A stretch of DNA of 13,303 nt, from assembly GCA_023435545.1 (NCBI GenBank), contig JAEYRQ010000028.1, positions 1 to 13,303 of the forward strand. The letters are read 5' to 3'. The translations under genes were made by a program, and so were the position numbers. Source of the stretch: Pseudomonadota bacterium (GTDB lineage Bacteria > Pseudomonadota > Alphaproteobacteria > Rhizobiales > Tepidamorphaceae). Shown here one piece after another: positions 1 to 13,303 of this stretch. The stretch's first letter is position 1. The number at the start of each line of letters is the position of its first letter. Under the pieces are notes generated by a model, which was not told the DNA's origin, did no database searches, and saw nothing but the letters and a program-made list of their open reading frames with translations.

Positions 1-1804
1 CGGTGACCCCGCGCCCTCCGGCGCTGTGCTGCAGGCGCACCATCGCGCCGACCTTCGCGGCCAGCTTCGCGACCACGTACTGACCCAGGTAGCGGGTCGG
101 CATGCCTTCGAGCTCGTCGAGGCCGGCGATGCGCTGGTTCGCGGCGAGCAGCTCGACATCGGTCATGCCCACGCCGTGGTCGATGATCGCGAGCTGGTAG
201 CCACCCTGACCGAGGGACCGGCCGTCGATCTCGACGGTGGAGTCCGGCGGCGAGAAGCCCAGAGCGTTCTCGATCAGCTCCGACAGCAGGTGGATCAGGT
301 CGATCACGACCGGCCCCGAGAGGGTGGCCTCACGCAGGTGGCCGATGCGGACCCGTTCGAAGTCCTCGACCTCGCTCATCGCCGCCCGGACGACCTCGGC
401 GACCGGTGCGGGTGCACGACGGCGGCGCGGGGTCTCGGAGCCGGCGAGGATCAGCAGCGACTCGGCGTTGCGTCGCATGCGGCTCGCGAGGTGGTCGAGC
501 TTGAAGAGGTGCTCGAGGAACGCGGGGTCGGTCTCCCGGGTCTCGAGCGAGGTGATGAAGTCGAGCTGGCGGGCGAGCAGCGTCTGGTTGCGTCGACCGA
601 GGTTCGTCATCGCCTCGGCCTGGTTGACCCGGAGCGCGGCCTGCTCGCTCGCGAGGCGCAGCGCGGTGTCCTGCACGTCGTTGAACGCCGCGGCGACCTC
701 GTGGACCTCGGCGGCACCCGTCGCGCGCAGCGCCGGCAGGTGCAGCTCCTCGCCGACCTGGTCCTGCTGGGCCTTCACTGCGTCGGGCAGGCGGGTCGTG
801 GCGACTTCTTCGGCCTGGGTGGCCAGGTCCTGCAGCGGGCGGGCGATCGAGCGAACCGCCCGGCGCAACAGCAGCGCGCTGATCAGGACGATCGCCACCG
901 CGGCGATCGCAGCGAGGAAGAGGAGCTGACGGCTCCGGCTCGCGAACTCGTCCACGACCGCGACGGCGTCGGCCTCGGCGGCGTCCTGCAGCTCGGTCAG
1001 CGTCTCGCTGCGCTGGTCGAGCCCGGCGGTCCACGCGGTGAAGTCGCGCGGGCCACGCTCGGTGAACACGTCGCGTCGGACCGAGTCGGCCGCCGACATC
1101 GAGTAGCCGACGCCCTCGATGAGCAGGCCCAGCTCGGTCGGCGCCGAGGCGGCGGCGAGAGCGGTGTAGGACTCCTGCTCCGACGCGAGGCCCATCAGCG
1201 CCTGGAAGGAGGTGGCGTCGAGCTCGCCCTCCTGGGCGACGATGAGCGTCAGGTCGCGCTCCTGGGACGACGCGGCCTGGGCACGGGCGAGGTAGTCGGT
1301 GGTGCTCGCCGCGCTGTCGTCCACCGACTCACCGGTGTCGATCGCGACGGTGGACAGGTCGAGCAGCTGGCCGATCGTCGTGGAGTAGGCCGCGAGCGCG
1401 ACACGTCCGCCGAGCTCGTTGCCCGACACCCGCTGCGCGGCGCTCAGGCGGATCAGCGCCCGGTCGGTGAGCTCCTGGAGCTCCCCGCCGATCGCGTTCG
1501 CCCGACCCTCCAGCGCGTCGGCCGCCGCCTGCACCGCCTCGCGCAGCTCGGGGGTCGACGCCTTGGCCTCGATCAGGGTGCGGCGCTCCGCCTCGAGCGC
1601 GTCGACGAGCCGGTACGAGCTCAGCGCCAGGTCGGTGCGTTCCTGGAGCCCCGCTGCCTCGGCGGACTGGGTCCAACCGAGGTACACGCCGTACCCGGTC
1701 ACGGCCAGCAGACCGGCGAGGGGGATCGCCATCAGCATCAGCAGCCGGGTGCTGATGCGGAGGCGACGGGACTGATGTTCTTCGGTCTTCCGTTGCCGTG
1801 CCAC
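1..1804 (-). CDS. NIT-type sensor histidine kinase (3' end off the left edge)
   Basis: Membrane sensor kinase of the actinobacterial nitrate/nitrite-sensor (NIT) type. It should sense a signal outside the cell and phosphorylate an unseen partner. Read on the minus strand from GTG at 1804, it has a short basic N-terminus, a first membrane helix (about residues 21-42), a mostly helical extracytoplasmic domain, and a second helix (about 293-313). A HAMP region follows, then a dimerisation segment with FKLDHLASRMRRNAE (His about 438). The ATPase domain has an N-box ELIENALGFSPP (Asn about 513) and a G1 box DHGVGM (Asp about 542). The frame is still open at base 1 in GGRGVT, close to the usual domain end. 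The start is uncertain: an in-frame ATG at 1984 would add 60 Arg/Pro-rich residues but would run over the map promoter, so I prefer GTG 1804, although no clear ribosome site precedes it. In actinobacteria such kinases often head 'conservon' (CvnA-type) operons, so roadblock, DUF742 and GTPase genes may lie beyond the left edge; this is inference. Confidence 0.85.
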   Translation of the reverse strand, partial: MARQRKTEEHQSRRLRISTRLLMLMAIPLAGLLAVTGYGVYLGWTQSAEAAGLQERTDLALSSYRLVDALEAERRTLIEAKASTPELREAVQAAADALEGRANAIGGELQELTDRALIRLSAAQRVSGNELGGRVALAAYSTTIGQLLDLSTVAIDTGESVDDSAASTTDYLARAQAASSQERDLTLIVAQEGELDATSFQALMGLASEQESYTALAAASAPTELGLLIEGVGYSMSAADSVRRDVFTERGPRDFTAWTAGLDQRSETLTELQDAAEADAVAVVDEFASRSRQLLFLAAIAAVAIVLISALLLRRAVRSIARPLQDLATQAEEVATTRLPDAVKAQQDQVGEELHLPALRATGAAEVHEVAAAFNDVQDTALRLASEQAALRVNQAEAMTNLGRRNQTLLARQLDFITSLETRETDPAFLEHLFKLDHLASRMRRNAESLLILAGSETPRRRRAPAPVAEVVRAAMSEVEDFERVRIGHLREATLSGPVVIDLIHLLSELIENALGFSPPDSTVEIDGRSLGQGGYQLAIIDHGVGMTDVELLAANQRIAGLDELEGMPTRYLGQYVVAKLAAKVGAMVRLQHSAGGRGVT

Positions 1805-1978
1805 GGGAGACGGATCGACATCGCAGGCCCGCCGGTTGAGAAAATCGTCGCCGGCGCGCGGCCGCAGCGGCCCGAAGAAAATGCGGTCGACCGACGCCCG
1901 GCGCCGAGGCGGATCGGGACCACGGGTCGGCGGGGAGCGCGCCCCGCGGGCCGCGGATCGCACCGCCCGGCGGTCTCG

Positions 1979-1991
1979 TAACATCGAGGCG
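1979..1991 (+). promoter_or_regulatory. Probable leaderless -10 promoter for map
   Basis: A TAACAT hexamer (1979-1984) matches the actinobacterial TANNNT -10 element and sits exactly 7 nt before the map ATG at 1992. This places the expected transcription start at or next to the A of the start codon, the known signature of leaderless actinobacterial transcripts. No well-spaced Shine-Dalgarno is present (GAGG at 1986-1989 is too close). No convincing -35 box is seen. The element occupies the 3' part of the 187-bp gap between the divergent kinase and map genes. I saw no clear minus-strand promoter in the rest of that gap. Confidence 0.5.
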
Positions 1992-2933
1992 ATGGGCAAA
2001 CGTCGCCGCCGAGCCGCACTTCCGCCGCCTCCGTCCGACCCGGTCACACCGGGGCTGGTCGGACCGATGCGCACCGTGAAGGTCGGCATCGCCCGGCCCG
2101 AGTACGCCGCGACGGGCCAGCCCTCGGCTCGTGAGAGCCGGGCCATCCGCACCGACGACGAGATCCTCGCGATGCGCACCGCGGGTCGCGTCGCCGCCGA
2201 GGCGTTGATCGAGGTCGGCCGCCACGTCCGACCGGGCGTGACCGGCGACGAGCTGGACCGCATCGGGCACGAGTTCATGGTCGACGCCGGCGCCTACCCG
2301 TCCACGCTCAACTACCGGGGCTTCCCGAAGTCGCTGTGCACCTCGGTGAACGAGGTCGTGTGCCACGGCATCCCCGACTCACGGAAGCTGGTCGACGGCG
2401 ACATCGTGAACGTCGACGTCACCGCCTACATCGAGGGCGTGCACGGCGACACCTCGTGCACCTTCCTCGTCGGCGAGGTCGACGAGGCGTCCGCTGCGCT
2501 CGTGCGCCGCACCCGTGCGGCGATGCACGCGGGCATCTCGGTCGTGCGACCCAAGGCGCGCATCTACGAGATCGGTCGGGCGATCGAGCAGTCGGTCGCG
2601 GAGTACGGCTACGGCGTCGTGCGCGAGTTCATCGGCCACGGCATCGGCGACCAGTTCCACACCAGCCTGCAGATCCCGCACTACTACGACCCCCACAACG
2701 ACACCGTGCTGCTGCCCGGCATGACGTTCACCGTCGAGCCGATGATCAACGTGGGCAGTCCCCGGCTCGAGATGTGGGACGACGGCTGGACCGTGGTGAC
2801 CCGCGACCTGCAGCGCTCCGCGCAGTTCGAGCACACCGTGCTGGTCACCGAGGACGGCCACGAGCTGCTGACGGTCGCCGCGGACGGCAGCTCGGCCGAC
2901 ACGCTCTTCGCCGACGTCGCACTCGGCGCCTGA
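1992..2933 (+). CDS. map: Methionine aminopeptidase, type I, MapB-like
   Basis: Cytosolic metalloenzyme that removes the initiator methionine from new proteins. The 313-aa product has all five metal ligands of the family: D142 (VNVDVTAY), D153 (HGDTSCTF), H216 (IGHGIGDQFH), E249 (TVEPM) and E280 (QFEHTVLV). The active-site histidines H125 (CHGIPD) and H223 are also present. About 50 residues precede the catalytic core, with a PPPP stretch and a RPEYAATG segment like the N-terminal extension of mycobacterial type Ic enzymes (MapB), supporting an actinobacterial origin. The frame is open upstream to 1836, but ATG 1992 is preferred because a -10-like hexamer lies 7 nt before it, and the extra upstream residues are Arg-rich and unlike the family. 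The gene stands alone, divergent from the sensor kinase and 94 bp before the SAF-domain gene. Confidence 0.95.
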   Translation: MGKRRRRAALPPPPSDPVTPGLVGPMRTVKVGIARPEYAATGQPSARESRAIRTDDEILAMRTAGRVAAEALIEVGRHVRPGVTGDELDRIGHEFMVDAGAYPSTLNYRGFPKSLCTSVNEVVCHGIPDSRKLVDGDIVNVDVTAYIEGVHGDTSCTFLVGEVDEASAALVRRTRAAMHAGISVVRPKARIYEIGRAIEQSVAEYGYGVVREFIGHGIGDQFHTSLQIPHYYDPHNDTVLLPGMTFTVEPMINVGSPRLEMWDDGWTVVTRDLQRSAQFEHTVLVTEDGHELLTVAADGSSADTLFADVALGA

Positions 2934-2957
2934 CCGACGCGCCACCGGCGGTCCATC

Positions 2958-2983
2958 TCCGCGGCCCCGCACGACCCCGCGGA
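2958..2983 (+). terminator. Weak hairpin downstream of map
   Basis: A 7-bp perfect inverted repeat, TCCGCGG and CCGCGGA, with a 12-nt loop, lies 25 nt after the map stop codon. There is no following T-tract, so it is at best a weak or Rho-assisted terminator. In such GC-rich DNA a 7-bp repeat may also be chance. Confidence 0.25.
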
Positions 2984-3017
2984 CCTGCACTTCCCCGCAT
3001 CCGTCACCATCGAGGAC

Positions 3018-3023
3018 GAGGAG
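3018..3023 (+). promoter_or_regulatory. Ribosome binding site of the SAF-domain gene
   Basis: GAGGAG 4 nt before GTG 3028 fixes this non-ATG start. It contrasts with the leaderless arrangement of the preceding map gene. Confidence 0.55.
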
Positions 3024-3027
3024 CAGT

Positions 3028-3756
3028 GTGCGGCCGCGGCATCGGCGAACCAGGGGGCCCTCGGGCTTGCGCGAGCAGGTCCCGCGCGAACAGGGCCTGC
3101 GCCAGCAGAGCCTGCTCGACCGGGCCCGGCGACGGGCAGCGAGGGCCGCGTCACGCGTGCGACGCTCGTGGCTCGCTCGCCGTGTCGCGCGGCGACGCGC
3201 CGCCGCGCTGAGCCTCGCGGCGTTGGCCGCGTGGGGCGTGACCGGCACGTCGGAACAGGCGCGACGTGACCGCGAACGGTGGGGACCGACCCGCCGTGTC
3301 GTGGTCGCGACCCGCGACATCGAGGCGGGCTCGGTCGTCGATGCCGGCAACGCCGTGATCGACGAGCGGCCCGTGCCGATGGTGCCGCAGGGGGCGCTGC
3401 GCGAGGTGCCCGTCGGTCGGCGGGTGCGCGTCGACGTGCCCGCCGGAGAGGCGCTGCTCTCTCCCCGCCTCGCCGGGTCCTCGCACGGCGAGCTGGCCGC
3501 TCGGCGGCCCGAGGGCGGCGCGGCGGTGACCTTTCCCCTGACCGAGGTGCACCCGGTGCTCGCCATCGGTGACCGGGTCGACGTCTACGCGTCGGTCAGC
3601 GACGTGTCGGGCACCGCCTCGGCGCGCGTCGCCGGCGCGGCGGCGGTGGTCGGGATCGACGGCGATTCGGTGACCGTCGCCGTGTCGGCCGACGAGGTCA
3701 GGGCGGCTGCGGCGGCGTCGTTGTCACCGGGCGTCGCGATCGTCGTGCGGCGATGA
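3028..3756 (+). CDS. SAF-domain membrane protein, CpaB/RcpC-like
   Basis: A 242-aa protein with a very basic, cytoplasmic-type N-terminus (residues 1-57), one membrane helix (about 57-73), and an extracytoplasmic SAF domain (about 89-148) with the typical pattern ATRDIEAGSVVDAGN...VGRRVRVDVPAGEALL. The remainder (about 164-242) resembles the C-terminal part of CpaB/RcpC pilus-assembly proteins, including AIGDRVDVYASV and an ending rich in valine and alanine. The start is GTG, supported by a GAGGAG ribosome site at 3018-3023 with a 4-nt gap. CpaB proteins take part in Flp/Tad pilus assembly, but stand-alone short SAF proteins are common in actinobacteria and no pilus gene is visible here, so the role is unresolved. 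An inverted repeat inside the early coding region (CGAGCAGG at 3072-3079, CCTGCTCG at 3111-3118) has no obvious purpose. Confidence 0.75.
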   Translation: MRPRHRRTRGPSGLREQVPREQGLRQQSLLDRARRRAARAASRVRRSWLARRVARRRAAALSLAALAAWGVTGTSEQARRDRERWGPTRRVVVATRDIEAGSVVDAGNAVIDERPVPMVPQGALREVPVGRRVRVDVPAGEALLSPRLAGSSHGELAARRPEGGAAVTFPLTEVHPVLAIGDRVDVYASVSDVSGTASARVAGAAAVVGIDGDSVTVAVSADEVRAAAAASLSPGVAIVVRR

Positions 3757-3771
3757 CGGCGCACCGACACC

Positions 3772-3784
3772 GCGGGCTCCCCGC
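3772..3784. terminator. Small hairpin between converging genes
   Basis: A 5-bp stem GCGGG/CCCGC with a 3-nt loop sits in the 38-bp gap between the SAF gene (plus) and the minus-strand coding tail that ends at 3795. It could act in both directions but has no T-tract and is short. Confidence 0.2.
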
Positions 3785-3794
3785 CAGGACGGAA

Positions 3795-3905
3795 TCAGGC
3801 GCCGGAGATCGACACGTCGTCGATGACCAGCGACGCGGCGCCGTGGCCCGAGGTCAGCCACTCGAAGTCGCCGCCGACCTCGCGCACGTCGAGCAGCAGG
3901 CGCTG
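3795..3905 (-). pseudogene. C-terminal fragment of an unidentified left-hand protein
   Basis: The last 36 codons of the minus-strand frame encode a tail unlike any histidine kinase: after the junction it reads [18 protein letters not shown] and finishes with [12 protein letters not shown] and TGA. The IDDVSI ending resembles the last strand of beta-sandwich (LamG/MAM/carbohydrate-binding-type) domains in secreted proteins, but 36 residues are too few to identify the family. I infer that this is the genuine 3' end of a left-hand (actinobacterial) gene converging on the SAF gene, whose 5' part has been replaced by unrelated DNA at the seam. It stays in frame with the upstream kinase, probably by chance. 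Confidence 0.55.
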
Positions 3906-5261
3906 CAGCGTCGAGGCGACGGTCAGGCTGATGCCGACGGGGTTGTTCACCTCGTGCGCGACGCCCGCCACCAGCCCGCCGAGCGCAGCGAGCTTCTCGG
4001 CGTCGATGAGGTTGCGCTGCGTGTCGCGGAGCTCGGCCAGCGCGCTCTCGGCGCGTTCCTTCGCCGTGATCAGTTCCTCCTCCGCCTTGCGCTTGGCGAT
4101 CGCGTTCTCGCGGAACACCTCGATCGCCACCGCCATGTCGCCGATCTCGTCGTCCCCGGCGAAGTCACCGAGGCGGTGGTCGTAATTGCCCTCGGCGATC
4201 TCGCGCATGGCGATCATCAGGTCGTAGAGCGGCACGACGAGGCTGCGGGCAATCGCCATGCTGAAGAGCACGATCAGCCCGATGAAGACGATCGTCACCG
4301 CGATGATGCGCCGGTAGACATCGCTCAGGGCCTCGTCGAAGCGGGACTGGGCGGCCGCCTCGCGCCGACCTGCGATCTCGGCCATGTCGGCGATCGCCCG
4401 CTCCATGCGCGCCTGATTGCCGTCGATGACCTCGTGCAGGAGTCGCGCCTGGGTAGTGAAGCTCTCTTCCAGCCGCCGCAAACCACGGTTGACGATGCCG
4501 GCCCGGTCCAGCAGTGCCATCAGCACCTGGCGCTGCATGTCGGTGTCGGCGAGGTCGAGCATCACCGGTGCCGTCCGCTCGATGATCTCGATGTTGCGCC
4601 GGGCGGCCGTCGCGGCGTCGGGGGCGAGAGAGAGATAGTAGGAATTGGCAGCGACCAGCATCGCCGAGAAGGCCTCGCGGGACTTGCCGAGCGCGGGCCA
4701 GATCAGCGAGCCGCCGTTGCGGGTCGAGCTGTCGATGATGGAGTAGAGCCCGGCCATCTCGCTCGCGGGCGCCAGCACGTCCTGCTCATAGATCGTCGCG
4801 ATCGCGGTGCGCACGTCGCGCAGGTCCTCGAAGCCGCCGAGGAAGGACTCCATGGCCCGCTTCAGCGCGCCCGCCGGCTCCGCCAGCGCCGGATCCGCCA
4901 TGGCGGGAGCGTCGAGCGCGCTGAGCAGCGCCGCGCGCCTCTGCTCGATCTCGGCGAGCACGGTTGCGCGCGGCTGGTTGAAGTAGCGGTGGATCACGCT
5001 CTGCAATCGCCCGGCCTGCGTCTCGATGACGATAAGCTCGCGGTCGGCGCGCTTGGCCGTCTCCAGTTCGTCCCAGGCGCCGCCGATCACCCGGCCGCCG
5101 TCCCACACCAGCAGCGCGAAGACCACCACCACCGCCGAGTTGAGCACCGCCAGCGCGAAAATGCGCCGGCGGATCGGCCAGGACCGGAACAGCAGTTCCA
5201 GCCCCAGGGTCCATGAGCGGCCAGGAGGCCGCCGATCCGAAATAAGGGCGGAGCTGGTCAC
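3795..5261 (-). CDS. TorS-like sensor histidine kinase, ATPase domain lost at the chimera seam
   Basis: The 488-residue frame holds the front two-thirds of a membrane sensor kinase. A first helix (about 34-56) is followed by a long, mostly helical periplasmic region (about 57-317). The second helix is at about 318-338, then HAMP (about 339-392, with [21 protein letters not shown]), a coiled coil (about 390-420), and the phospho-acceptor box [20 protein letters not shown] with His 436. After residue 452 the sequence becomes an unrelated 36-residue tail, so the second dimerisation helix and the whole ATP-binding domain (N, G1, G2 boxes) are missing. The start is GTG, 6 nt after the dctP stop codon, indicating translational coupling. 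The helical sensor region and the binding-protein neighbour recall TorS, whose periplasmic domain docks TorT. The native gene is probably intact in its own genome, and the truncation here is most likely an artefact. Confidence 0.8.
3903..3911. other. Chimera junction between two genomes
   Basis: Minus-strand kinase sequence is normal through GISLTVAS (residues 443-450), followed by T451-L452 and then abruptly non-kinase sequence from Q453. The bases at the seam contain CTGCAG (3903-3908). Protein families left of here are of actinobacterial type; those right of here are of alphaproteobacterial type. No transposase, integrase, tRNA or repeat accompanies the change. An assembly or amplification chimera is the simplest explanation. 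The exact breakpoint could shift by a few codons. Confidence 0.7.
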
Positions 5262-5267
5262 GCCGGC

Positions 5268-6254
5268 CTACCGCACCAAACGGATCCGCTCGACCAGGTC
5301 GCGCATCCGCTCGTCGGCCAGCGCTTCGTCGTAGAGGGGTTGCATCGCAGCGGCGAACGGCTCGTGGTCGATGTCCTCGATAACAGTCACGCCGGCATTC
5401 CTCGCCTTGAGCCGGGCCTCGGCCTCGCTCGCCATCCAGAGCCCCCGCATATAGGCGGCCGAATCGCGCGCGGCCTCGCGGAAAATCCGCCGGTCGTCCT
5501 CCGACAGCCCGTCCCATGCCTTCTGCGACATCACCAGCACCTCCGGGCTCATCGTGTGTCGGGTCAGCGTGTAGTAGGGGGCCGACAGGTAGTGTCCCGT
5601 GGTGATGTAGGAGGGCCAGTTGTTCTCGGCTCCGTCGATCAGGCCGGCGCTGAGCGCGGTGGCGATCTGGCCGTAGGGGAGCGCCACCGGCTCAGCCCCG
5701 AGCGCGCGCACCATGTCGATCATCAGGTCGGACTGCTGGACCCTGATTCTGAGGCCCTTGAGGTCCTCGATGCCGCGGACCGGCCGAATCCGGTTGTAGA
5801 TCGAGCGAATGCCGGAATCGTAGAATGCGAGGCCGACCAGACCATGATCGGCGAAGCTCGCCAGGATCTCCTCGCCGATCGGCCCGTCGATCACCGCGTA
5901 GAGGTGCTCCTCGTCGCGGAACAGGAACGGCATGGCCAGCACGCTCGCCTCGGGGATGAAGGCACCGAGCGGGGCGACGTTGATCCGGTTCAGATCGATG
6001 GCGCCGGCGCGCGTCTGCTCGATCGTCTCCTGCTCCTCGCCGAGCTGGCGGGAATGGAAGACGAGGATGCGGTGCCGGCCGTCGGTGCGCTCGCGCACCA
6101 GCCTGTCCATGAAGGCGAGCGCCTGGACGGTCGGGTAATGCTCGGGCTGGGTGTCGGCGGCGCGCAGGTCCCGCGCCTCGGACGAGGCAGCCACCAGACC
6201 GGCGAGGATCGCCGCAAGCACGCCGATCATTCGCAATCGATGCCATGGCGACAT
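5268..6254 (-). CDS. dctP: TRAP-type solute-binding protein, DctP family
   Basis: A secreted 328-aa binding protein of the TRAP transporter family, expected to capture a small organic acid or similar solute in the periplasm. It has an N-terminal signal peptide (residues about 1-27: short basic start, hydrophobic core GVLAAILAGLVAAS, cut near SEA). Family hallmarks are the ligand-arginine region LKGLRIRVQQSD (Arg about 171), the LPYGQIATALSAGLIDGAENN segment (194-212), and the usual overall length. ATG 6254 is chosen over a longer frame starting at 6329 because GGAGGGAA (6262-6269) lies 7 nt upstream and the signal peptide begins properly there. It lies 6 nt before the sensor kinase and no DctQ/DctM permease genes are seen, so it may act as the sensory partner of the kinase, as TorT does for TorS, rather than in transport. 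The ligand cannot be named from sequence alone. Confidence 0.92.
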   Translation of the reverse strand: MSPWHRLRMIGVLAAILAGLVAASSEARDLRAADTQPEHYPTVQALAFMDRLVRERTDGRHRILVFHSRQLGEEQETIEQTRAGAIDLNRINVAPLGAFIPEASVLAMPFLFRDEEHLYAVIDGPIGEEILASFADHGLVGLAFYDSGIRSIYNRIRPVRGIEDLKGLRIRVQQSDLMIDMVRALGAEPVALPYGQIATALSAGLIDGAENNWPSYITTGHYLSAPYYTLTRHTMSPEVLVMSQKAWDGLSEDDRRIFREAARDSAAYMRGLWMASEAEARLKARNAGVTVIEDIDHEPFAAAMQPLYDEALADERMRDLVERIRLVR

Positions 6255-6472
6255 CTGACGGTTCCCTCCAGCCGGTGCCGCGGACCTGCCGGATCGGGCA
6301 GGTTGGGCGGCGCATATTAATCCGAGCATGGCCGATCCGCCATCGGATGCGGCGCCGGCTCCGGGTCCTGCCCGGCCGGCCCTGGATCGGAGCGCGCAAT
6401 TCTATGTGGACGGCTGAATTTGCTTCGATAATATCGCGCCGTTCGGAATTGTCCTGCGGCGAACCACGACTC
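6255..6472. promoter_or_regulatory. Divergent control region between dctP and the response regulator
   Basis: This 218-bp gap must hold promoters for both the leftward dctP-kinase pair and the rightward regulator. It contains AT-rich patches (around 6313-6323 and 6398-6450) that stand out in GC-rich DNA. They include a small palindrome CGATA-A-TATCG (6426-6436) and three copies of a GAATT core: inverted at 6398-6402, direct at 6416-6420 and 6446-6450. The two direct copies are 30 bp apart, about three helical turns, which would suit an OmpR-family regulator. No clear sigma-70 boxes were identified. The role is inferred. Confidence 0.4.
6262..6269 (-). promoter_or_regulatory. Strong ribosome binding site of dctP
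   Basis: GGAGGGAA on the minus strand with a 7-nt gap to ATG 6254. It settles the start against the 25-codon longer frame. Confidence 0.75.
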
Positions 6473-7222
6473 GTGTCAGAGAACGCGCATATTCTTGTTG
6501 TCGACGATGACGTCGACGTTCGCGAAATGGTTCGCGACTACCTGGCCACACACGATTTCATCGTCTCGACCGCGGAGGGTGGCACGGCCATGCGGGAGGT
6601 GCTGGCCGAACGGCCGGTCAATCTGGTGGTCATGGACATGAAGATGCCCGGCGAGGACGGCATCACGCTGGTGCGATATCTGCGCGAGCGTGGGCCGGTC
6701 GGGATCATCATGCTGACGGCAAGTGCCGAGGTGATCGACCGGGTGGTGGGCCTCGAGGTCGGCGCCGATGACTACCTGACGAAGCCGTTCGATCCCCGGG
6801 AGCTGCTCGCCCGGGTTCGCAGCCTGCTGCGGCGAATGGCGGCCCTGGCGGGCGCGGAGGCCGAGTCGGCACCGGCGACGATGGGCCACGAGGTCGTCAT
6901 GGGCCTCTGCATCCTCAACCTGGAGACCCGGCGGCTCTACAATCGCCAGGGCGAGGACGTGGCGATGACGGCGATGGAGTTCGACCTTCTCAAGGCTTTC
7001 GCCGAGCGGCCGAACCGGGTGCTGTCACGCGATCAGCTACTCGACCTCGCGCATAACCGCGACATGGAGGCGTTCGACCGCTCGATCGACATCCGGATCA
7101 TGCGGCTGAGGCGGAAGCTCGAGCCCGATCCGCAGAAGCCGGAGGTGCTGAAGACCGTCCGCGGCCTCGGCTACATGTTCGTGCCCGGCGCGAAGGCGCG
7201 GGCCGCGAAGGCGGAGGAGTGA
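6473..7222 (+). CDS. OmpR/TorR-type response regulator
   Basis: A 249-aa transcription factor of a two-component system. The receiver domain (about residues 6-117) has the acidic pair D11/D12, phospho-acceptor D55 (LVVMD), T82 (MLTAS) and K104 (LTKPF). A linker (about 120-138) leads to a winged-helix DNA-binding domain (about 140-238) with EFDLLKAFAERPNRVLSRDQLL and a C-terminal wing KTVRGLGYMFVP. The receiver's PVGIIMLTASAEVIDRVVGLE stretch is close to that of E. coli TorR as I recall it. The start is uncertain: GTG 6473 gives the family's usual N-terminus (SENAHILVVDDD) but lacks a ribosome site, while in-frame ATG 6404 would add 23 residues and has only a distant GGAG. It is divergent from the dctP-kinase pair and is its likely phosphorylation partner; targets probably include the shared intergenic region. 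Confidence 0.92.
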   Translation: MSENAHILVVDDDVDVREMVRDYLATHDFIVSTAEGGTAMREVLAERPVNLVVMDMKMPGEDGITLVRYLRERGPVGIIMLTASAEVIDRVVGLEVGADDYLTKPFDPRELLARVRSLLRRMAALAGAEAESAPATMGHEVVMGLCILNLETRRLYNRQGEDVAMTAMEFDLLKAFAERPNRVLSRDQLLDLAHNRDMEAFDRSIDIRIMRLRRKLEPDPQKPEVLKTVRGLGYMFVPGAKARAAKAEE

Positions 7223-7350
7223 GACTGCGGCTCTTCACGTCGAGCAGCAGCCACGAAGCACACTCCTCTCCGCGTCATACCGGACATCACGCCAACCGGA
7301 TCGGAGAGCCCGGCATTGGTGCTAGTCGAGCCAGTCCGGCAGGACCGGCC

Positions 7351-7399
7351 ACAAAACAGAACCGCCGCCTGCCGGGAGGTCAGTACCGGCAGACGGCGG
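7351..7399 (-). terminator. Intrinsic terminator after the L,D-transpeptidase gene
   Basis: A strong hairpin with 14-nt arms (7362-7375 and 7386-7399, one mismatch) and a 10-nt loop, made from CCGCCG-c-CTGCCGG and its complement. On the minus strand it is followed by the T-rich stretch TTCTGTTTTGT (7361 to 7351), as expected of a Rho-independent terminator for the leftward L,D-transpeptidase gene that ends at 7450. Its hairpin may also stop rightward transcripts from the response regulator. The rest of the 227-bp gap (7223-7449) shows no gene. Confidence 0.7.
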
Positions 7400-7449
7400 G
7401 GGACGACAAGCCGAGGTGGAGCGGCTCGTATCTGTCCGGGGAGTTCAGG

Positions 7450-8028
7450 TCACAAGACGACGACCGGGGTTCCGACCGTGACGCGCTCGTAGAGGTCGAC
7501 CACGTCCTCGTTCAGCATGCGGATGCAGCCGGAGGACATCGCCTGGCCGATCGACTTCGGGTCGTTCGAGCCGTGAATGCGGTAGAGGGTAGAGCCCAGA
7601 TACATCGCGCGGGCGCCCAGCGGGTTGTCGAGGCCGCCCGGCATGTAGCGCGGCAGCTCGGGCTGGCGCTTCAGCATCTCCGGCGGCGGCGTCCAGTCCG
7701 GCCACTCGCGCTTCTGCGAGACCTTGTGGGTGCCGCGCCATTCGAAGCCTGGCCGGGCAACGCCGATGCCGTAGCGCATCGCAACCCCGTCGCCGATGAC
7801 GTAGTAGAGCCGGCGCTCGTTGGTGTCGACGACGATCGTACCGGGAGCGTAGGGGCCGTAATAGTCGACCACCTCGCGGCGGATCTGCGGGATCTCCTGC
7901 TCGACGAAGCGGCTGGGCGCGTGCAGCTGACGTCCGGTCAGCGGGTCGAACTGGATGCTGGCGTCGGCCGGCGAGCCGAGCGTCAGGATGGCGGCCGCCG
8001 CAGCAGCCGCAAGAGCGATACGCTTCAT
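7450..8028 (-). CDS. Periplasmic L,D-transpeptidase (YkuD domain)
   Basis: A 192-aa secreted enzyme predicted to make or edit peptidoglycan cross-links, or to attach proteins to the wall, through a catalytic cysteine. It has a signal peptide (MKRIALAAAAAAAILTLG, cut near ADA at about 21-23) and a YkuD domain (about 63-192). The signature is IHGSNDPKS...MSSGCIRM, with H152, S166, G167, catalytic C168 and R170, followed by NEDVVDLYERVTVGTPVVV, as is usual for the family. The start is ATG 8028, preceded by GGAGG (8034-8038) with a 5-nt gap; a frame extended to GTG 8040 would overlap this site. It lies 56 bp downstream of the small secreted-protein gene on the same strand and ends before a terminator, so the two may be co-transcribed. 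Alphaproteobacteria usually carry several such paralogues, so its specific role is open. Confidence 0.93.
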   Translation of the reverse strand: MKRIALAAAAAAAILTLGSPADASIQFDPLTGRQLHAPSRFVEQEIPQIRREVVDYYGPYAPGTIVVDTNERRLYYVIGDGVAMRYGIGVARPGFEWRGTHKVSQKREWPDWTPPPEMLKRQPELPRYMPGGLDNPLGARAMYLGSTLYRIHGSNDPKSIGQAMSSGCIRMLNEDVVDLYERVTVGTPVVVL

Positions 8029-8084
8029 TGTTGCCTCCACTGGAATTCGAAACGGCTTATATGCCGTGCGGATTGAGATTGTGT

Positions 8085-8483
8085 TCAGCGCTGGGCCAAG
8101 ACCGTCGAGGTCTTGGAAACGAACGAGTTACTTCCGTCTTCCACGATCGCGACGGTGCGGACCTTGCGGTCGGCCGCAGCCTCGTCGACGACGGTCAGGC
8201 AGTGCCGGGGAACATTCGGCCAGGTGAAGTCGGCGCAATTGCGCTCGACCATGTCCAGCCGGTCGCCCTTGGGGGTCGAAACCGGAGTGACGCGGGCCGC
8301 GCCCGACCGCTCGGCCTCAAGGGCTCCGCGCAGGTCGGCGCTGGCGCTGAAGGCGGGGTGGCGGTCCTGAAGCTTCACGTAGTCCACGCCGACAGTCTGC
8401 CCGCTCTGGGACGGCTCGGTCAGAGCGACGATCCCCGTCGCGGCGATGGCCGACAGAATGATCATCGTGCGGGTGGTAAACAT
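8085..8483 (-). CDS. Small secreted hypothetical protein with a cysteine pair
   Basis: I do not recognise a named family, though short alphaproteobacterial exported proteins with similar C-termini exist. The 132-aa product begins with a signal-like segment (MFTTRTMIILSAIAATGIVALT) and has a mature part with two cysteines, C83 and C95, in RNCADFTWPNVPRHCLTV, well placed for a disulphide in the periplasm. The end, RKVRTVAIVEDGSNSF..., looks like a short strand-rich segment. ATG 8483 is supported by GGAG (8490-8493) with a 6-nt gap; the longer frame to 8543 lacks this and starts with an unlikely leader. It lies upstream of the L,D-transpeptidase on the same strand and downstream of a possible stress promoter. 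Function unknown. Confidence 0.7.
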   Translation of the reverse strand: MFTTRTMIILSAIAATGIVALTEPSQSGQTVGVDYVKLQDRHPAFSASADLRGALEAERSGAARVTPVSTPKGDRLDMVERNCADFTWPNVPRHCLTVVDEAAADRKVRTVAIVEDGSNSFVSKTSTVLAQR

Positions 8484-8547
8484 GACGGTCTCCACTGGTG
8501 TCGCCCTTTGCGTTGGCGGGCGTCTCATTTCTGATGACGCCATATGT

Positions 8548-8572
8548 AACGTCCGTCCTTTTCGAACGTTTC
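8548..8572 (-). promoter_or_regulatory. Possible EcfG-type (general stress) promoter
   Basis: On the minus strand GAAAC (8572-8568) and CGTT (8551-8548) are separated by exactly 16 nt. The alphaproteobacterial EcfG sigma factor recognises GGAAC-N16/17-CGTT, so this has one mismatch in the -35 element. Transcription would start near 8540, about 57 nt before the small secreted-protein gene. The match is short and could be chance. Confidence 0.3.
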
Positions 8573-8623
8573 ACTGGAGCGCGAGATTTTCGTTTCAATG
8601 ATTTCACGGCGCGAGGTTGGTTG

Positions 8624-8649
8624 GCGCCTGTAATCAGCGTTACAGGCGC
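8624..8649. repeat. Perfect 10-bp inverted repeat
   Basis: GCGCCTGTAA and TTACAGGCGC flank a 6-nt loop. It lies about 150 nt downstream of the aldehyde dehydrogenase stop codon and about 140 nt upstream of the small secreted-protein start. Neither side has a T-tract, so it could be a Rho-assisted terminator of the catabolic operon or an operator for a dimeric regulator. It is too long and exact to dismiss as chance. Confidence 0.55.
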
Positions 8650-8796
8650 ACCATCAAAACCGTTCGCAGGAATGCCCTGCGCCGTAGGGGGAGGAAGGCT
8701 GGCCGGCGACAAGTGCTTGATCGCAAGAGCGGTCTGCGTCGCCGGCTCGACGGGTCAACGTCCTTAGCGGCAGCCGGGTTCCCCTGGGCCACCCAC

Positions 8797-10305
8797 TCAG
8801 CCGTGGCGGATCCAGGCCGACTTCGTCTGGGTGTAGGACACGACGCTCTCGAAACACTTGTCGCGGGCGTTGCCGGATTGCTTCCATCCGCCGAAAGGCT
8901 GGGTCATGTCGCCCTCGTCGAAGCAGTTGACCCAGACAACGCCGGCCTCGATCTCCTTCACCAGCCTGAGCGCGGTGTCGATGTTCGAGGTCCACACGCC
9001 CGCCGCCAGCCCGTAGACGGTGTCGTTGGCGACCGCAACCGCCTCGTCGATGCCGTCGACCGGGATCACCGCACCGACCGGGCCGAAGATCTCCTCGCGG
9101 GCGATAGTCATCGAATTGGCCGCGTCGGCGAACAGGGTGGGGTTGACGTAGGCGCCGGGAGACTGGGGCGTATCGCCGCCGAACACCAGGCGGGCGCCAT
9201 CGCGGCGGCCGGCATCGATGTAGCCCATCACCCGCCGGCGGTGCTCGTCGGTGACCAGCGGCCCCATGCGGGTCTCGGGGTCGAGAGGGTCGCCGGGCGC
9301 GAACGAAGCCTCGGCGGCCTTGCGGAACAGGTCGACGAAATCGCCGGCGATCCTGCGGTCGACGATCATCCGCGAGCCGGCGTTGCAGACCTCGCCCTGG
9401 TTGCCGAAGATGCCGTAGACGGCGGAGGCCGCGGCGCGCTCGAGGTCGGAGACGTCGGCGAGCACGATCTGCGGGCTCTTGCCCCCGCATTCGAGCGCCA
9501 CCTGCTTCATGTTCGTCTGGCCGGCATACTGCAGGATCAGCTTGCCGACCTCGGTCGAGCCGGTGAACGAGATCTTGGCGACGTCGCCATGTAGCGCCAG
9601 CGCCTTGCCGGCGGTCTCGCCATGGCCGTTGACGACGTTGAGGGCGCCGGGAGGGCCGCCCGCTTCGACGAACAGTTCGGCGAGGCGGATGCAGGAGAGC
9701 GGCGCCTGCTCGGCCGGCTTCAGCACCACCGTGTTGCCGGCGGCCAGCGCCGGAGCGATCTTCCAGACCGCCATCAGCAGCGGATAGTTCCACGGCGAGA
9801 TGCACCCCACCACGCCGAAGGGCTGGCGCAGCACGCAGTGGAGCACGCTCGCATCCGTCGCCGTCACCTTGCCGTCGATCTTGTCGATGCACTCGGCCAT
9901 GAAGCGGATGGTCTTGACCACCTCCGGCAGGTCGACCGAGACCATGTCGGCGATCGGCTTGCCCATGTCGAGCGTGTCGAGCAGGGCAAGCATGCCTGCC
10001 TCTGCCTCGATCAGGTCGGCAAAGCGGTAGAGGACCTCCATGCGGGCGCGGGGCGCGAGCCTGGACCAGCGCCCGTCGCGAAAGGCGCGTTTGGCTGCTG
10101 CGACCGCGCGGTCGATGTCGGCCGCGTTGCCCTCCGCCATCTCCGCCAGCACCTCGCCGGTCGCCGGATTGACGGTCTCGAAGCGCCCGCCGCCGAGCGC
10201 GTCGACATACTCCCCGTCGATGAACAGCCGCGTCTCGAGCTTCAGCCCGTCAGCGAGCGAGAGCCACTGCGCCTTGTCGAGGTCGGGGAGCTTCGTCAGG
10301 TGCAT
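8797..10305 (-). CDS. Aldehyde dehydrogenase, PuuC-like
   Basis: A 502-aa cytosolic NAD(P)-dependent dehydrogenase that oxidises an aldehyde to a carboxylic acid. All catalytic elements are present: N173 (PWNYP), K196 (LKPAEQ), general base E272 (LECGGKS), nucleophile C307 (GEVCNAG) and E405 (REEIFGP). The overall layout, the LETRLFIDGEY start and the DEGDMTQPFGGWKQSGN ending closely resemble E. coli PuuC (gamma-glutamyl-gamma-aminobutyraldehyde dehydrogenase) as I recall its sequence, but substrate range varies widely in this group, so I give no gene symbol. ATG 10305 is chosen because AGGAGG (10311-10316) lies 5 nt upstream; the frame extends to 10353 but would then overlap the preceding gene. 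It lies 25 bp after the acyl-CoA synthetase gene, so the two are very likely one transcript. The acid product is a natural substrate for that synthetase. Polyamine-derived aldehydes are one option among several. Confidence 0.95.
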   Translation of the reverse strand: MHLTKLPDLDKAQWLSLADGLKLETRLFIDGEYVDALGGGRFETVNPATGEVLAEMAEGNAADIDRAVAAAKRAFRDGRWSRLAPRARMEVLYRFADLIEAEAGMLALLDTLDMGKPIADMVSVDLPEVVKTIRFMAECIDKIDGKVTATDASVLHCVLRQPFGVVGCISPWNYPLLMAVWKIAPALAAGNTVVLKPAEQAPLSCIRLAELFVEAGGPPGALNVVNGHGETAGKALALHGDVAKISFTGSTEVGKLILQYAGQTNMKQVALECGGKSPQIVLADVSDLERAAASAVYGIFGNQGEVCNAGSRMIVDRRIAGDFVDLFRKAAEASFAPGDPLDPETRMGPLVTDEHRRRVMGYIDAGRRDGARLVFGGDTPQSPGAYVNPTLFADAANSMTIAREEIFGPVGAVIPVDGIDEAVAVANDTVYGLAAGVWTSNIDTALRLVKEIEAGVVWVNCFDEGDMTQPFGGWKQSGNARDKCFESVVSYTQTKSAWIRHG

Positions 10306-10310
10306 AGGGG

Positions 10311-10316
10311 CCTCCT
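10311..10316 (-). promoter_or_regulatory. Ribosome binding site of the aldehyde dehydrogenase gene
   Basis: AGGAGG with a 5-nt gap to ATG 10305, placed in the 25-bp space after the synthetase stop codon. It decides the start and supports an operon. Confidence 0.75.
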
Positions 10317-10330
10317 GCAATTGCCCGTCG

Positions 10331-12418
10331 TCATCGCCCCACCACCAGCGCATCCACCGCGATACAGCCGCGCGGCAGGGCCATCAGCGGGTTGACGTCG
10401 ATCGATTGTATGTCCTCGCCCATCGCGTCCGCCAGTGCGGAGAAGCGCGCGGCGGTGTCGCAGAGCGCATCGATGTCGCTTGCCGGTGCGCCCCGAACTC
10501 CGTCGAGCAAGGGGCGGAGCCGCAGGCGGCCGATCAGGCGGCGGGCCTCGGCGGCATCGAAGGGCGGCTTGGCGAACACCACGTCCTTCAGCACCTCGGC
10601 ATGGATGCCGCCGAAGCCGATCAGCACGACCGGGCCGAAATCGGGATCGCGGCTCATGCCGAGCAGTATCTCGACGCGCGGACCGGCCACCATGCCGGCG
10701 ACCAGCACCCGCGGCCCGAGCCGCGATGCGATGTCGCGCCAGGCTCCCGCGACGGCCTCGGGCGAGGCGAGCCCCAGCGCGACGCCGCCGACATCCGACT
10801 TGTGGGCGATGCCCGGCATGGCGGTCTTCAGCACCACCGGGAAACCGATGCGCGCGGCGGCGGCAACCGCCCCGGCCTCGCTGTCGGCGACTTCGCAGGG
10901 AGCCGTCGGAATCCCGAAGTCGGCGAGCAGCGCCAGCCCCTCGGCCTCGCCCAATTCTCGGCCCCGGGCGATCCTCGCGCGCCAGCGCGCCACGACCGCC
11001 GGATCGGCTGCCGGGGGAACCATCGCCGGCCGCGCCAGAAGGTCCCGGCGTGCGAAGGCGAGCCGGCACGCGGTCAGGAACGGCGGCAGGTCGTCGAGTA
11101 CCGGTGTGCCCGCCCGCGTCGCGGCGACGGCCTCCGGATCGGTGCCGCTGCCCTGATGATTGGAGACGATGAACACCGGCTTGCCGGTCTCCGCATGCGC
11201 CTCGCGGGCCAGCACGATGTTCTCCGGCGTCACCCTGCCGCCGGCACCGCGATCGAGCACCAGCGCGCCGATCGCGGTGTCGGGATCGCGCATCAGCGCC
11301 TTGAAGCTCTCGAAGAAGTCGGCTGGATAGTTGCGGCCCGTGCCCCAGCGGTCGAGCGGGTTCACCGGCTCGAGCCCGTAGTCGAGCACCTCGGTCAGGC
11401 GGGCGACGGTCTCTGGCGACAGATTTGCGAACGGCACATCGTGGTCATGGGCGAGATCGGCCATCAGGCCGCGCTCGCCGCCGGAATCGTGGCTGGTGGC
11501 GAGCCCGCCCGCACCGATGTCGCGGGTGACGGGAAGCACCATCATCGCGGCTGCCAACTCGTCGACCGAGCGCACCTCGGCGACGCCGTAGCGCTCGAAC
11601 AGCGCGGCATAGTCGGCATGGTCGCCGGCGATCGCGCCGGAATGGCTGAGCGCCAGCCGGGCGCTGGTCTCCGTCCGTCCGACCTTCAGCGCGACCACGG
11701 GCACGTTGCGCGCCAGAGCCTTCTCCAGCGCCCGCTCGAACCCTTCCGGATCGCGGGCGGTCTCCATGAACAGGCCGATCACCCGCGTCCACGGCTGGTC
11801 GAGGGCGAAGTCCATGTAGTCGGCGAGCGTGAGGCTCAGTTCCTGCCCCGTGGAGACGGCGAGGCCGAGGTCGATGCGTTCCTCGGAATCGACCAGCGCG
11901 GTGAATAGCGAGCCGGAATGGGTGAGCAGCACCGCCCCGCCGGCGACATGGTCCGCCCGGGTCTCGAAGCCGCAGACCCACAGGCCCTCGTGGAAATTGT
12001 AGAAGCCCATGCAGTTGCCGCCGCACAGCAGGATGCCGGCCTCGCGCGCGCGGTCGCGGATGCGGTCCTTCAGGCCGGGATCGCCCTGAAGCGCGAGCGG
12101 CGAGACGATGGTGGCGGCGCGGGCGCCGATTTGAATCGCGGCGGCGAGCCCCGCCTCGATCTGCTCGTCGCCGAGCGCGAAGACCACATGCTCCGGCCGC
12201 TCCGGCAGGTCGGCGAGCGAGGGCAGACAGGCGACGCCCTCGATCTCGGCATAGCGCGGGTTCACGCACCACAGCCCGCCGGCATAGCCGCCCGTGCGCA
12301 TCTGCCGGACGAACATATTGCCGACGCTCGGCACCCGGCCGCTCGCGCCGACGATCGCCACGGATGCAGCGCGCAAGAGCGGGTCGAGACGATGGGAGCG
12401 GAGCGCGGTGTGTTTCAT
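10331..12418 (-). CDS. NDP-forming acyl-CoA synthetase (acetate-CoA ligase family)
   Basis: A 695-aa single-chain enzyme of the ADP-forming acetyl/acyl-CoA synthetase family, which turns an acid, ATP and CoA into an acyl-CoA by way of a phospho-histidine. Domains in order: a CoA-binding Rossmann domain (about 10-105, with LRAASVAIVGASG), succinyl-CoA-ligase-like domains (about 150-460) with the presumed phospho-histidine H259 in LALSHSGAIAG, and an ATP-grasp domain (about 485-695) with KTAMPGIAHKSDVGG, GFGGIHAEVLKDV and IDVNPLMA. Start and length fit the family, although no clear ribosome site precedes ATG 12418. The aldehyde dehydrogenase follows directly and the GcvT-like gene lies upstream beyond a repeat. 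The true substrate is unknown. The family covers acetate, other short acids, pimelate and, in sphingomonads, feruloyl-type acids (FerA), so both amine and aromatic catabolism are possible. Confidence 0.92.
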   Translation of the reverse strand: MKHTALRSHRLDPLLRAASVAIVGASGRVPSVGNMFVRQMRTGGYAGGLWCVNPRYAEIEGVACLPSLADLPERPEHVVFALGDEQIEAGLAAAIQIGARAATIVSPLALQGDPGLKDRIRDRAREAGILLCGGNCMGFYNFHEGLWVCGFETRADHVAGGAVLLTHSGSLFTALVDSEERIDLGLAVSTGQELSLTLADYMDFALDQPWTRVIGLFMETARDPEGFERALEKALARNVPVVALKVGRTETSARLALSHSGAIAGDHADYAALFERYGVAEVRSVDELAAAMMVLPVTRDIGAGGLATSHDSGGERGLMADLAHDHDVPFANLSPETVARLTEVLDYGLEPVNPLDRWGTGRNYPADFFESFKALMRDPDTAIGALVLDRGAGGRVTPENIVLAREAHAETGKPVFIVSNHQGSGTDPEAVAATRAGTPVLDDLPPFLTACRLAFARRDLLARPAMVPPAADPAVVARWRARIARGRELGEAEGLALLADFGIPTAPCEVADSEAGAVAAAARIGFPVVLKTAMPGIAHKSDVGGVALGLASPEAVAGAWRDIASRLGPRVLVAGMVAGPRVEILLGMSRDPDFGPVVLIGFGGIHAEVLKDVVFAKPPFDAAEARRLIGRLRLRPLLDGVRGAPASDIDALCDTAARFSALADAMGEDIQSIDVNPLMALPRGCIAVDALVVGR

Positions 12419-12458
12419 GGCGATCGGATGGCCTGGATCAACACCGGTACATACTGCA

Positions 12459-12564
12459 CGTCATCCCGGCCGAGCGGCGCGAGAGCCGGGATCGGGGCGC
12501 GCATGTCAGCAGCCGCCGTGCCCTCCCGATCCCGGATAGCGGCGTTGCCGCTTCCGGGATGACG
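12459..12564. repeat. Two-hairpin palindromic intergenic repeat
   Basis: The element is bounded by CGTCATCCCGG (12459-12469) and its exact complement CCGGGATGACG (12554-12564). It contains two hairpins: ATCCCGGC/GCCGGGAT (12463-12470, 12485-12492) and a longer one with 14 paired bases and one bulged T (12529-12543 with 12547-12560, loop GTT). Such CGTCATCCCGG...CCGGGATGACG elements are dispersed between genes in many alphaproteobacteria (RIME/REP-like). Only one copy is in view. It lies between the GcvT-like gene and the acyl-CoA synthetase and may reduce read-through or stabilise transcript ends. The rest of the 169-bp gap shows no gene. Confidence 0.75.
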
Positions 12565-12587
12565 GGGAGCGTGTGTTTGACTCGCCA

Positions 12588-13303
12588 TCACATCTCCCCC
12601 GGCGGGGTCACGGTGCGGCGGGGGTGGACGAAGAAGGGGCGGTCGACGACGCGGGCGCGCACCATCAGCTTCTGGTAGGCGAGTTCGCGCAGCGCGTAGA
12701 TCTCCACCCACAGGTCGCCGGTCACGGTGTCGCCGTAGGGGCGCTCCAGCGAGGCGATGGCGATGTTGCGCTTGGCCGTCGGCGACCAGGCGCCGGCAGT
12801 GATGTGGCCCACCTCGCGCTTTCCCCGATGGTAGACCAGCGCATGATCGGCCGGAACGTTGCCGTCGATGTCGAGGCCGACCAGGCAGTGGCGCGAGGTG
12901 CCCTTCGCCTTCTCCTCGGCGAGCGCGCGCCGGCCGTTGAAGTGGCGCGGTTTGTCCAGCGCGACCAGCCAGCCGAGCCCGATCTCGAAGGGGGAGCGGC
13001 GACGGTCGGCGCGGATGGCATGCTCGGCGGTGATGAAGTCGGCATTGGCGACGATGAAGCCCGCCTCCAGCCGGGCGAGATTCAGCGCCGCATAGCCGAT
13101 GGCGGTGATGCCGTAGAGGCGACCGGCCTCCATCAAGAGGTCCCACAGCGCCAGGGCATCATTCGGCGCGACGAACAGCTCATAGCCGAGATCGCCGGTG
13201 AAGCCGGTCCGGGAGACGGTCGTGTCCATGCCTGACACTTCGAATCGCCGGATGTCGAAGGGCTTCATGGTCTCGACGCCGGCGCAGCCGGCGGCCGTCA
13301 GCA
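12588..13303 (-). CDS. GcvT-fold aminomethyltransferase-family protein (5' end off the right edge)
   Basis: The frame is open past the right edge, so only the last 237 residues are visible; the ATG at 13268 is internal, since the preceding codons (LTAAGCGVET) continue the fold. Recognisable features are VSRTGFTGDLGYELFV (visible residues about 28-43), which matches the substrate/folate-binding loop of glycine-cleavage T proteins, LARLEAGF (about 75-82), and a C-terminal barrel with GRRALAEEKAKG and VGHITAGAWSPT. These proteins transfer a one-carbon unit to tetrahydrofolate; the family includes GcvT, dimethylglycine/sarcosine enzymes, the DMSP demethylase DmdA and the aromatic O-demethylase LigM. 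The ending (RPFFVHPRRTVTPPGEM) differs from true GcvT as I recall it, and no gcvH or gcvP gene is near, so a catabolic demethylase is more likely than glycine cleavage. The substrate cannot be assigned. Confidence 0.85.
   Translation of the reverse strand, partial: LTAAGCAGVETMKPFDIRRFEVSGMDTTVSRTGFTGDLGYELFVAPNDALALWDLLMEAGRLYGITAIGYAALNLARLEAGFIVANADFITAEHAIRADRRRSPFEIGLGWLVALDKPRHFNGRRALAEEKAKGTSRHCLVGLDIDGNVPADHALVYHRGKREVGHITAGAWSPTAKRNIAIASLERPYGDTVTGDLWVEIYALRELAYQKLMVRARVVDRPFFVHPRRTVTPPGEM

Follow-up and report, generated by a model that had tools for sequence, protein, structure and literature searches.

A contig that passes from actinobacterial to alphaproteobacterial DNA within one reading frame, most probably a chimera

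The locus and the question

The window (the whole stretch of 13,303 nucleotides analyzed here) contains an open reading frame of 488 residues, at 3795-5261 on the minus strand, within which the homology changes from one bacterial phylum to another. Does this frame, which stays open across the change in a continuous contig, encode a new protein of a real organism, or does it mark a place where two unrelated pieces of DNA were joined? The initial annotation had claimed a sharp switch at about 3905, inside one reading frame, and had favored an assembly, amplification or binning chimera. Our analysis leads us to a firm view: the window is very probably a chimeric contig, in which DNA of an Acidimicrobiia-type actinobacterium and DNA of a Hyphomicrobiales-type alphaproteobacterium were joined via a short shared sequence. 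The features of the window are as follows.

5-1810 (-): NIT/HATPase sensor kinase, actinobacterial (Acidimicrobiia-type); Pfam NIT and HATPase_c; cut by the window edge
1992-2933 (+): type I methionine aminopeptidase with an N-terminal extension, MapB-like; TIGR00500 above cut-off
3028-3756 (+): SAF-domain (CpaB-like) protein; PF08666; TIGR03177 at 48 bits, below its cut-off of 71
3795-3926 (-): last 43 codons of a TldE/PmbA-type gene, actinobacterial; about 410 codons upstream of these missing
3899-3926 (-): seam of 28 bp at most, with the codons for LTVASTLQR and one further base, possibly common to both parents
3927-5261 (-): N-terminal part of an alphaproteobacterial HAMP sensor histidine kinase; HEVNNP H-box kept, ATPase domain missing
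5268-6329 (-): TRAP transporter DctP-type solute-binding protein; PF03480, NF037995; relative P0121 at 91%
6473-7222 (+): OmpR/TorR-type response regulator; domain and NCBIfam profiles
7450-8040 (-): L,D-transpeptidase (YkuD); Pfam
between the L,D-transpeptidase and aldehyde dehydrogenase genes: open reading frame of 152 residues
8797-10353 (-): aldehyde dehydrogenase, PuuC-like; domain and NCBIfam profiles
10331-12418 (-): ADP-forming acyl-CoA synthetase-like protein
12588-13301 (-): aminomethyltransferase, GcvT-like; cut by the window edge

Two truncated genes share one reading frame

The 488-residue frame was searched against 5.8 billion proteins, giving 4,109 hits, of which the best 120 were examined. 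Its residues 1-454 are 95% identical to P0001, 84% to P0002 (from Tepidamorphus gemmatus, a member of the Hyphomicrobiales within the Alphaproteobacteria) and 84% to P0003; these proteins have 675-677 residues (677 for both P0001 and P0002). Among these best 120 relatives the local alignments stop at residue 454 (window position 3900) in 106, at residues 451-453 in 11 and at residues 464-465 in the remaining three, and every one of the 120 extends 22-241 residues beyond the end of its alignment. The HATPase_c domain is recorded for 116 of the same 120 relatives (precomputed domain column); scans with Pfam found it in P0001 and P0002, and found HAMP and no HATPase_c in the window frame. The frame therefore resembles the HAMP kinases of Tepidamorphus gemmatus-type Hyphomicrobiales over its first 454 residues (84-95% identity to P0001-P0003) but differs from them in having neither the ATPase domain, which a functional sensor histidine kinase requires, nor about 220 further residues. 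A plasmid search with the kinase gave a similar picture: 41 records were matched, at least 36 of them with alphaproteobacterial genus names, three from Vibrio and one from Roseateles, and 11 of the best 12 matches end at residues 452-454 (a match to a chemotaxis protein ends at residue 418).

Homology to the C-terminus of actinobacterial TldE starts at residue 446 (window position 3926). The last 43 residues of the frame are 79%, 79% and 81% identical to the ends of longer genes that lie beyond the SAF gene in the related loci L001, L002 and L003, and 63-81% identical across 11 related genomes. In L001 the gene is complete, encoding a protein of 458 residues with all three domains of PmbA_TldD (TldE/PmbA is the modulator of DNA gyrase family); compared with such a full gene, the window has 43 codons only. 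The tail also matches the final 40 positions of PF19289 (181-220 of 220; E 0.032, below cut-off). The genes at both sides of the seam are truncated reciprocally, and in its respective relatives each runs on normally. L001:4463-8576, L002:11879-16775 and L003:1552-6423 each contain, past the SAF gene, three genes of the TldD/PmbA family, all on one strand and within about 5 kb.

The end of kinase homology and the start of TldE homology together place the switch within 3899-3926, in agreement with the position of about 3905 claimed earlier; it falls inside the single frame 3795-5261(-), as had also been claimed.

The left side is an actinobacterial block

To the left of the tail, the NIT kinase and MapB have actinobacterial best matches, bearing out the initial annotation, which had assigned this side to actinobacteria from its NIT kinase, MapB-like protein and short SAF protein. 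The closest relatives of the NIT kinase (P0241-P0246; 945-976 residues) are 90-93% identical to it, and P0246 is assigned to Actinomycetota; Microthrixaceae, of the class Acidimicrobiia, occur among the relatives at 55-84% identity. A HAMP domain in this kinase falls just under the Pfam cut-off. All 52 plasmid records that match it carry actinobacterial genus names. For MapB, a search of genome contigs gave the closest loci at 84% (L001), 76% (L002) and 79% (L003) identity; 79 of the best 80 loci are actinobacterial by title and one is from Pyxidicoccus, and on plasmids the top three matches are actinobacterial and those below are mixed. The Pyxidicoccus locus (L014, Pyxidicoccus caerfyrddinensis, a contig of 789 kb) has a MapB 61% identical to that of the window, amid otherwise actinobacterial matches; transfer of this myxobacterial-titled gene is possible.

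Gene order was compared in 16 distinct genomes, represented by 18 loci (L087 and L090 duplicate L002 and L003); of 397 genomes in the same taxonomic order that were searched at the DNA level, 341 had matched, and the best 15 of these were made into loci. The TldE tail follows the SAF gene on the opposite strand in 11 of the 16 genomes, giving the order MapB, SAF, convergent TldE. No such tail was found in about 600-770 further bases of L084, L089 and L093, and the misses also count L085 and L092, in which the sequence ends at or just past the expected place. An NIT kinase (47-50% identity) lies divergent from MapB in three of the 16 (L083, L084 and L085); none was found beside MapB in the 2.6 kb (L001) and 10 kb (L002) upstream that were examined. 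From this neighbor order in related genomes we infer that positions 5-3926 of the window are one actinobacterial block. The SAF gene itself comes after MapB, in the same orientation, in 15 of the 16 related genomes, with its product at only 26-38% identity.

One of these records is itself peculiar. L001 (CAMDAT010000101.1) is titled as a metagenome-assembled genome of Bifidobacterium breve; its MapB-SAF-TldE block is as in uncultured relatives, and its TldE is 98% identical over 212 residues to that of L091, which belongs to the order of genome G002. The name or the binning of the record looks wrong.

The right side is alphaproteobacterial

To the right of the seam, the kinase, DctP and plasmid matches are mostly alphaproteobacterial, consistent with the earlier assignment of this side. 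Named relatives of DctP include Pseudorhodoplanes and Beijerinckiaceae, and its top eight plasmid matches are alphaproteobacterial, as are the top five for the response regulator, the top eight for the aldehyde dehydrogenase, seven of the top eight for the acyl-CoA synthetase-like protein (one is from Variovorax) and the top five for the aminomethyltransferase; the top five for the L,D-transpeptidase are from Rhizobium and Sinorhizobium. Lower-scoring plasmid records for the right-side families span many other phyla, and the response regulator family is widespread, with at least 5,000 plasmid records matched. Because the plasmid collection is rich in alphaproteobacteria and the families are widespread, these matches support the assignment of the right side rather than prove it. 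The neighborhood of kinase and DctP in other contigs is supported by a coincidence of size, which is its whole basis: contigs with the kinase (115 of 116 listed) and contigs with DctP (119 listed) include eight of equal size, compared with a mean of 0.4 and a maximum of 4 under 5% jitter.

For the regulator that had been called TorR-like, OmpR is the best profile and TorR the second-best, and all of these profiles score below the NCBIfam cut-offs. For the dehydrogenase, PuuC is indeed the best profile, as claimed, but it too is below its NCBIfam cut-off. The CGTCATCCCGG repeat that had been reported from this side is present as an inverted pair at 12459-12469 and 12554-12564, between the acyl-CoA synthetase and aminomethyltransferase genes (2 found, 0.04 expected).

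Composition changes at the same place

Two comparisons that the initial annotation had proposed came out as it expected: best-match phyla, set side by side, are actinobacterial on the left and alphaproteobacterial on the right, and tetranucleotide profiles differ across the seam. The best tetranucleotide change point, on a 100-bp grid, is at 4000 (log-likelihood ratio 289.6; 278.7 at 3900). Control maxima in 63 length-matched stretches from the MapB search loci have a mean of 142.6 (standard deviation 37.0), and one of the 63 (L032) is as high. The GC content is 72.8% on the left versus 68.3% on the right, a difference equalled in one of the 63 controls, and the left-right tetranucleotide L1 distance of 0.327 exceeds the control mean of 0.189 (standard deviation 0.034), again with one of 63 as large. 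The left side is closer to L002 and L003 (0.274 each) than is the right (0.417 and 0.433), and the right is closer to a segment of a Chelatococcus plasmid (0.176) than is the left (0.342). The contrary case is L001 (58% GC), which is closer to the right side (0.495) than to the left (0.698). Since one in 63 controls is equally extreme, we do not trust composition alone; on this grid, the change in composition falls at the same place as the switch in homology inside the frame.

The stretch at the seam

Codons 446-454 of the frame (3926 down to 3900) encode LTVASTLQR. At the switch P0001-P0003 read GISLTVAS(S/T)LQR with R as the next residue; P0002 agrees with LTVASTLQR in full, and P0001 carries S instead of the window's T at residue 451. 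QR at residues 453-454 is found in four of the best 120 of the 4,109 kinase hits, and most have AR. The corresponding peptide in the 11 TldE relatives is (L/V/I/M/A)T(V/L/I)AS(T/S)(L/I)QRLL, in no case exactly that of the window; at the DNA level these relatives depart from the 28 window bases in 2 (L086) to 10 (L088) positions, so that a full match to all 28 bases occurs in none of these 11 actinobacterial relatives. On one side of the stretch the kinase goes on with R (codon CGN, if like its neighbors) versus CTG in the window, which leaves at most one further base in common; on the other side, upstream, the TldE relatives have E versus S in the window. The stretch that both parents may have shared is therefore no longer than 3899-3926 (28 bp). 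With S at residue 451 in the alphaproteobacterial parent, as in P0001, it would shrink from 28 to about 15 bp. We infer from these neighbors both that the parental sequences were the same at the seam and how long the true identity was.

In 17.9 kb of alphaproteobacterial DNA compared with 1.44 Mb of actinobacterial DNA we found ten exact matches of 20-26 bases, some of which are in homologous genes, and none of 27 bases or more. An estimate of about 3,000 chance shared k-mers (21 or more) per genome pair was rejected; it rests on six matches in mutually related loci, two of which (at window positions 9543 and 9719) keep the same spacing in one locus and so suggest a homologous gene.

Weighing the explanations

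A genuine kinase of a single genome, with a new short C-terminal domain and no chimera, would account for a frame that is open across the seam; we give this reading hardly any credence, as 11 of 16 actinobacterial genomes have the 43-residue tail, beside MapB and SAF, at the end of a protein of another family, and the ATPase domain of 116 of the best 120 relatives is missing from the frame. The stop of the alignments at 451-454 and the identity of the tail with the end of TldE contradict a new domain directly. Real transfer between the phyla, in either direction, by illegitimate recombination at a short shared sequence has in its favor that the contig is continuous across the seam and that microhomology joins occur in nature, yet we judge it very improbable, and equally so the form it would have to take here: a very recent natural recombination of acidimicrobial and alphaproteobacterial chromosome segments at a chance identity of at most 28 bp, with no mobile element. 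Both seam genes are truncated, and the composition is still different on the two sides. The absence of a mobile element had been claimed before, and our searches concur: the window has no tRNA and no Rfam family at gathering score, direct repeats of at least 14 bases are absent from 3600-4300, and a Pfam scan of 11 window proteins showed neither a transposase nor an integrase domain, so that no vehicle or insertion signature of a genomic island was found.

The partners of such a transfer were also sought elsewhere. The kinase was found in none of 198 genomes from the G002 order (E 1e-20; a search with no positive control) and DctP in none of three relatives. The PHROGs families matched by the kinase and by DctP all lack a name. 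No such fusion occurs among the best 120 of the 4,109 protein hits (in a collection clustered at 90%, where a fusion may be hidden as a cluster member); the exact junction of 44 bp is absent from viral_contigs, and 80% coverage of 3795-4100 is reached in none of 20 plasmid records, so that protein, viral_contigs and plasmid searches gave no independent genome with the same arrangement. A search of viral_contigs with P0001 for the parental alphaproteobacterial DNA gave no match. Plasmids did not yield that DNA either: of the 41 records matched, the best 12 are at 27-53% protein identity, and three of the 41 reach 60-80% over their best place.

There remains the chimera, for which the reciprocal truncation at a near-identical peptide stretch speaks, as the initial annotation had proposed for assembly or amplification. 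Binning alone, which it had also named, is ruled out, because the switch lies inside a single contig and a single frame. A wet-lab chimera (branch migration in multiple displacement amplification [MDA] or template switching in PCR), faithfully sequenced, is a sub-case of the artefact that we consider possible although rather unlikely: MDA and PCR chimeras also use short shared sequences, but those of MDA more commonly connect nearby or inverted segments of a single genome. Assembler, MDA and PCR chimeras look alike at the sequence level.

A model of the join and its consequences

As we picture the chimeric contig, actinobacterial DNA would run from 1 to about 3912 and alphaproteobacterial DNA from about 3912 to 13303, the join having presumably formed where the two share, by chance, no more than 28 bp and where the TldE-type and kinase genes would encode a near-identical peptide in the same orientation and frame. 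A k-mer assembler may have joined two genomes that share a k-mer where coverage was too thin to resolve them; template switching in MDA or PCR would be a less likely maker of the join. In the available text of the review PMC7299287, chimeric contigs are described as arising from assembly graphs linked by shared k-mers. The window resembles the interspecies chimeric contigs of short-read metagenome assembly in having two genomes in one contig and a switch at a short shared sequence; it differs from the cases in that text, which are chiefly of close species or links made by sequencing errors, in joining different phyla where these share, by chance, 28 bp at most.

We regard the fused frame as most likely artefactual and as no biological novelty. 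Inference from gene neighborhood across about 3900 is unsafe in this contig, as had been warned, the two sides matching different phyla: the NIT kinase, MapB and SAF genes and the TRAP, two-component and aldehyde dehydrogenase genes most likely come from different organisms. Where two GC-rich phyla happen to encode a similar peptide, this may suffice to fuse contigs in frame, and an in-frame misjoin of this kind mimics a fusion gene.
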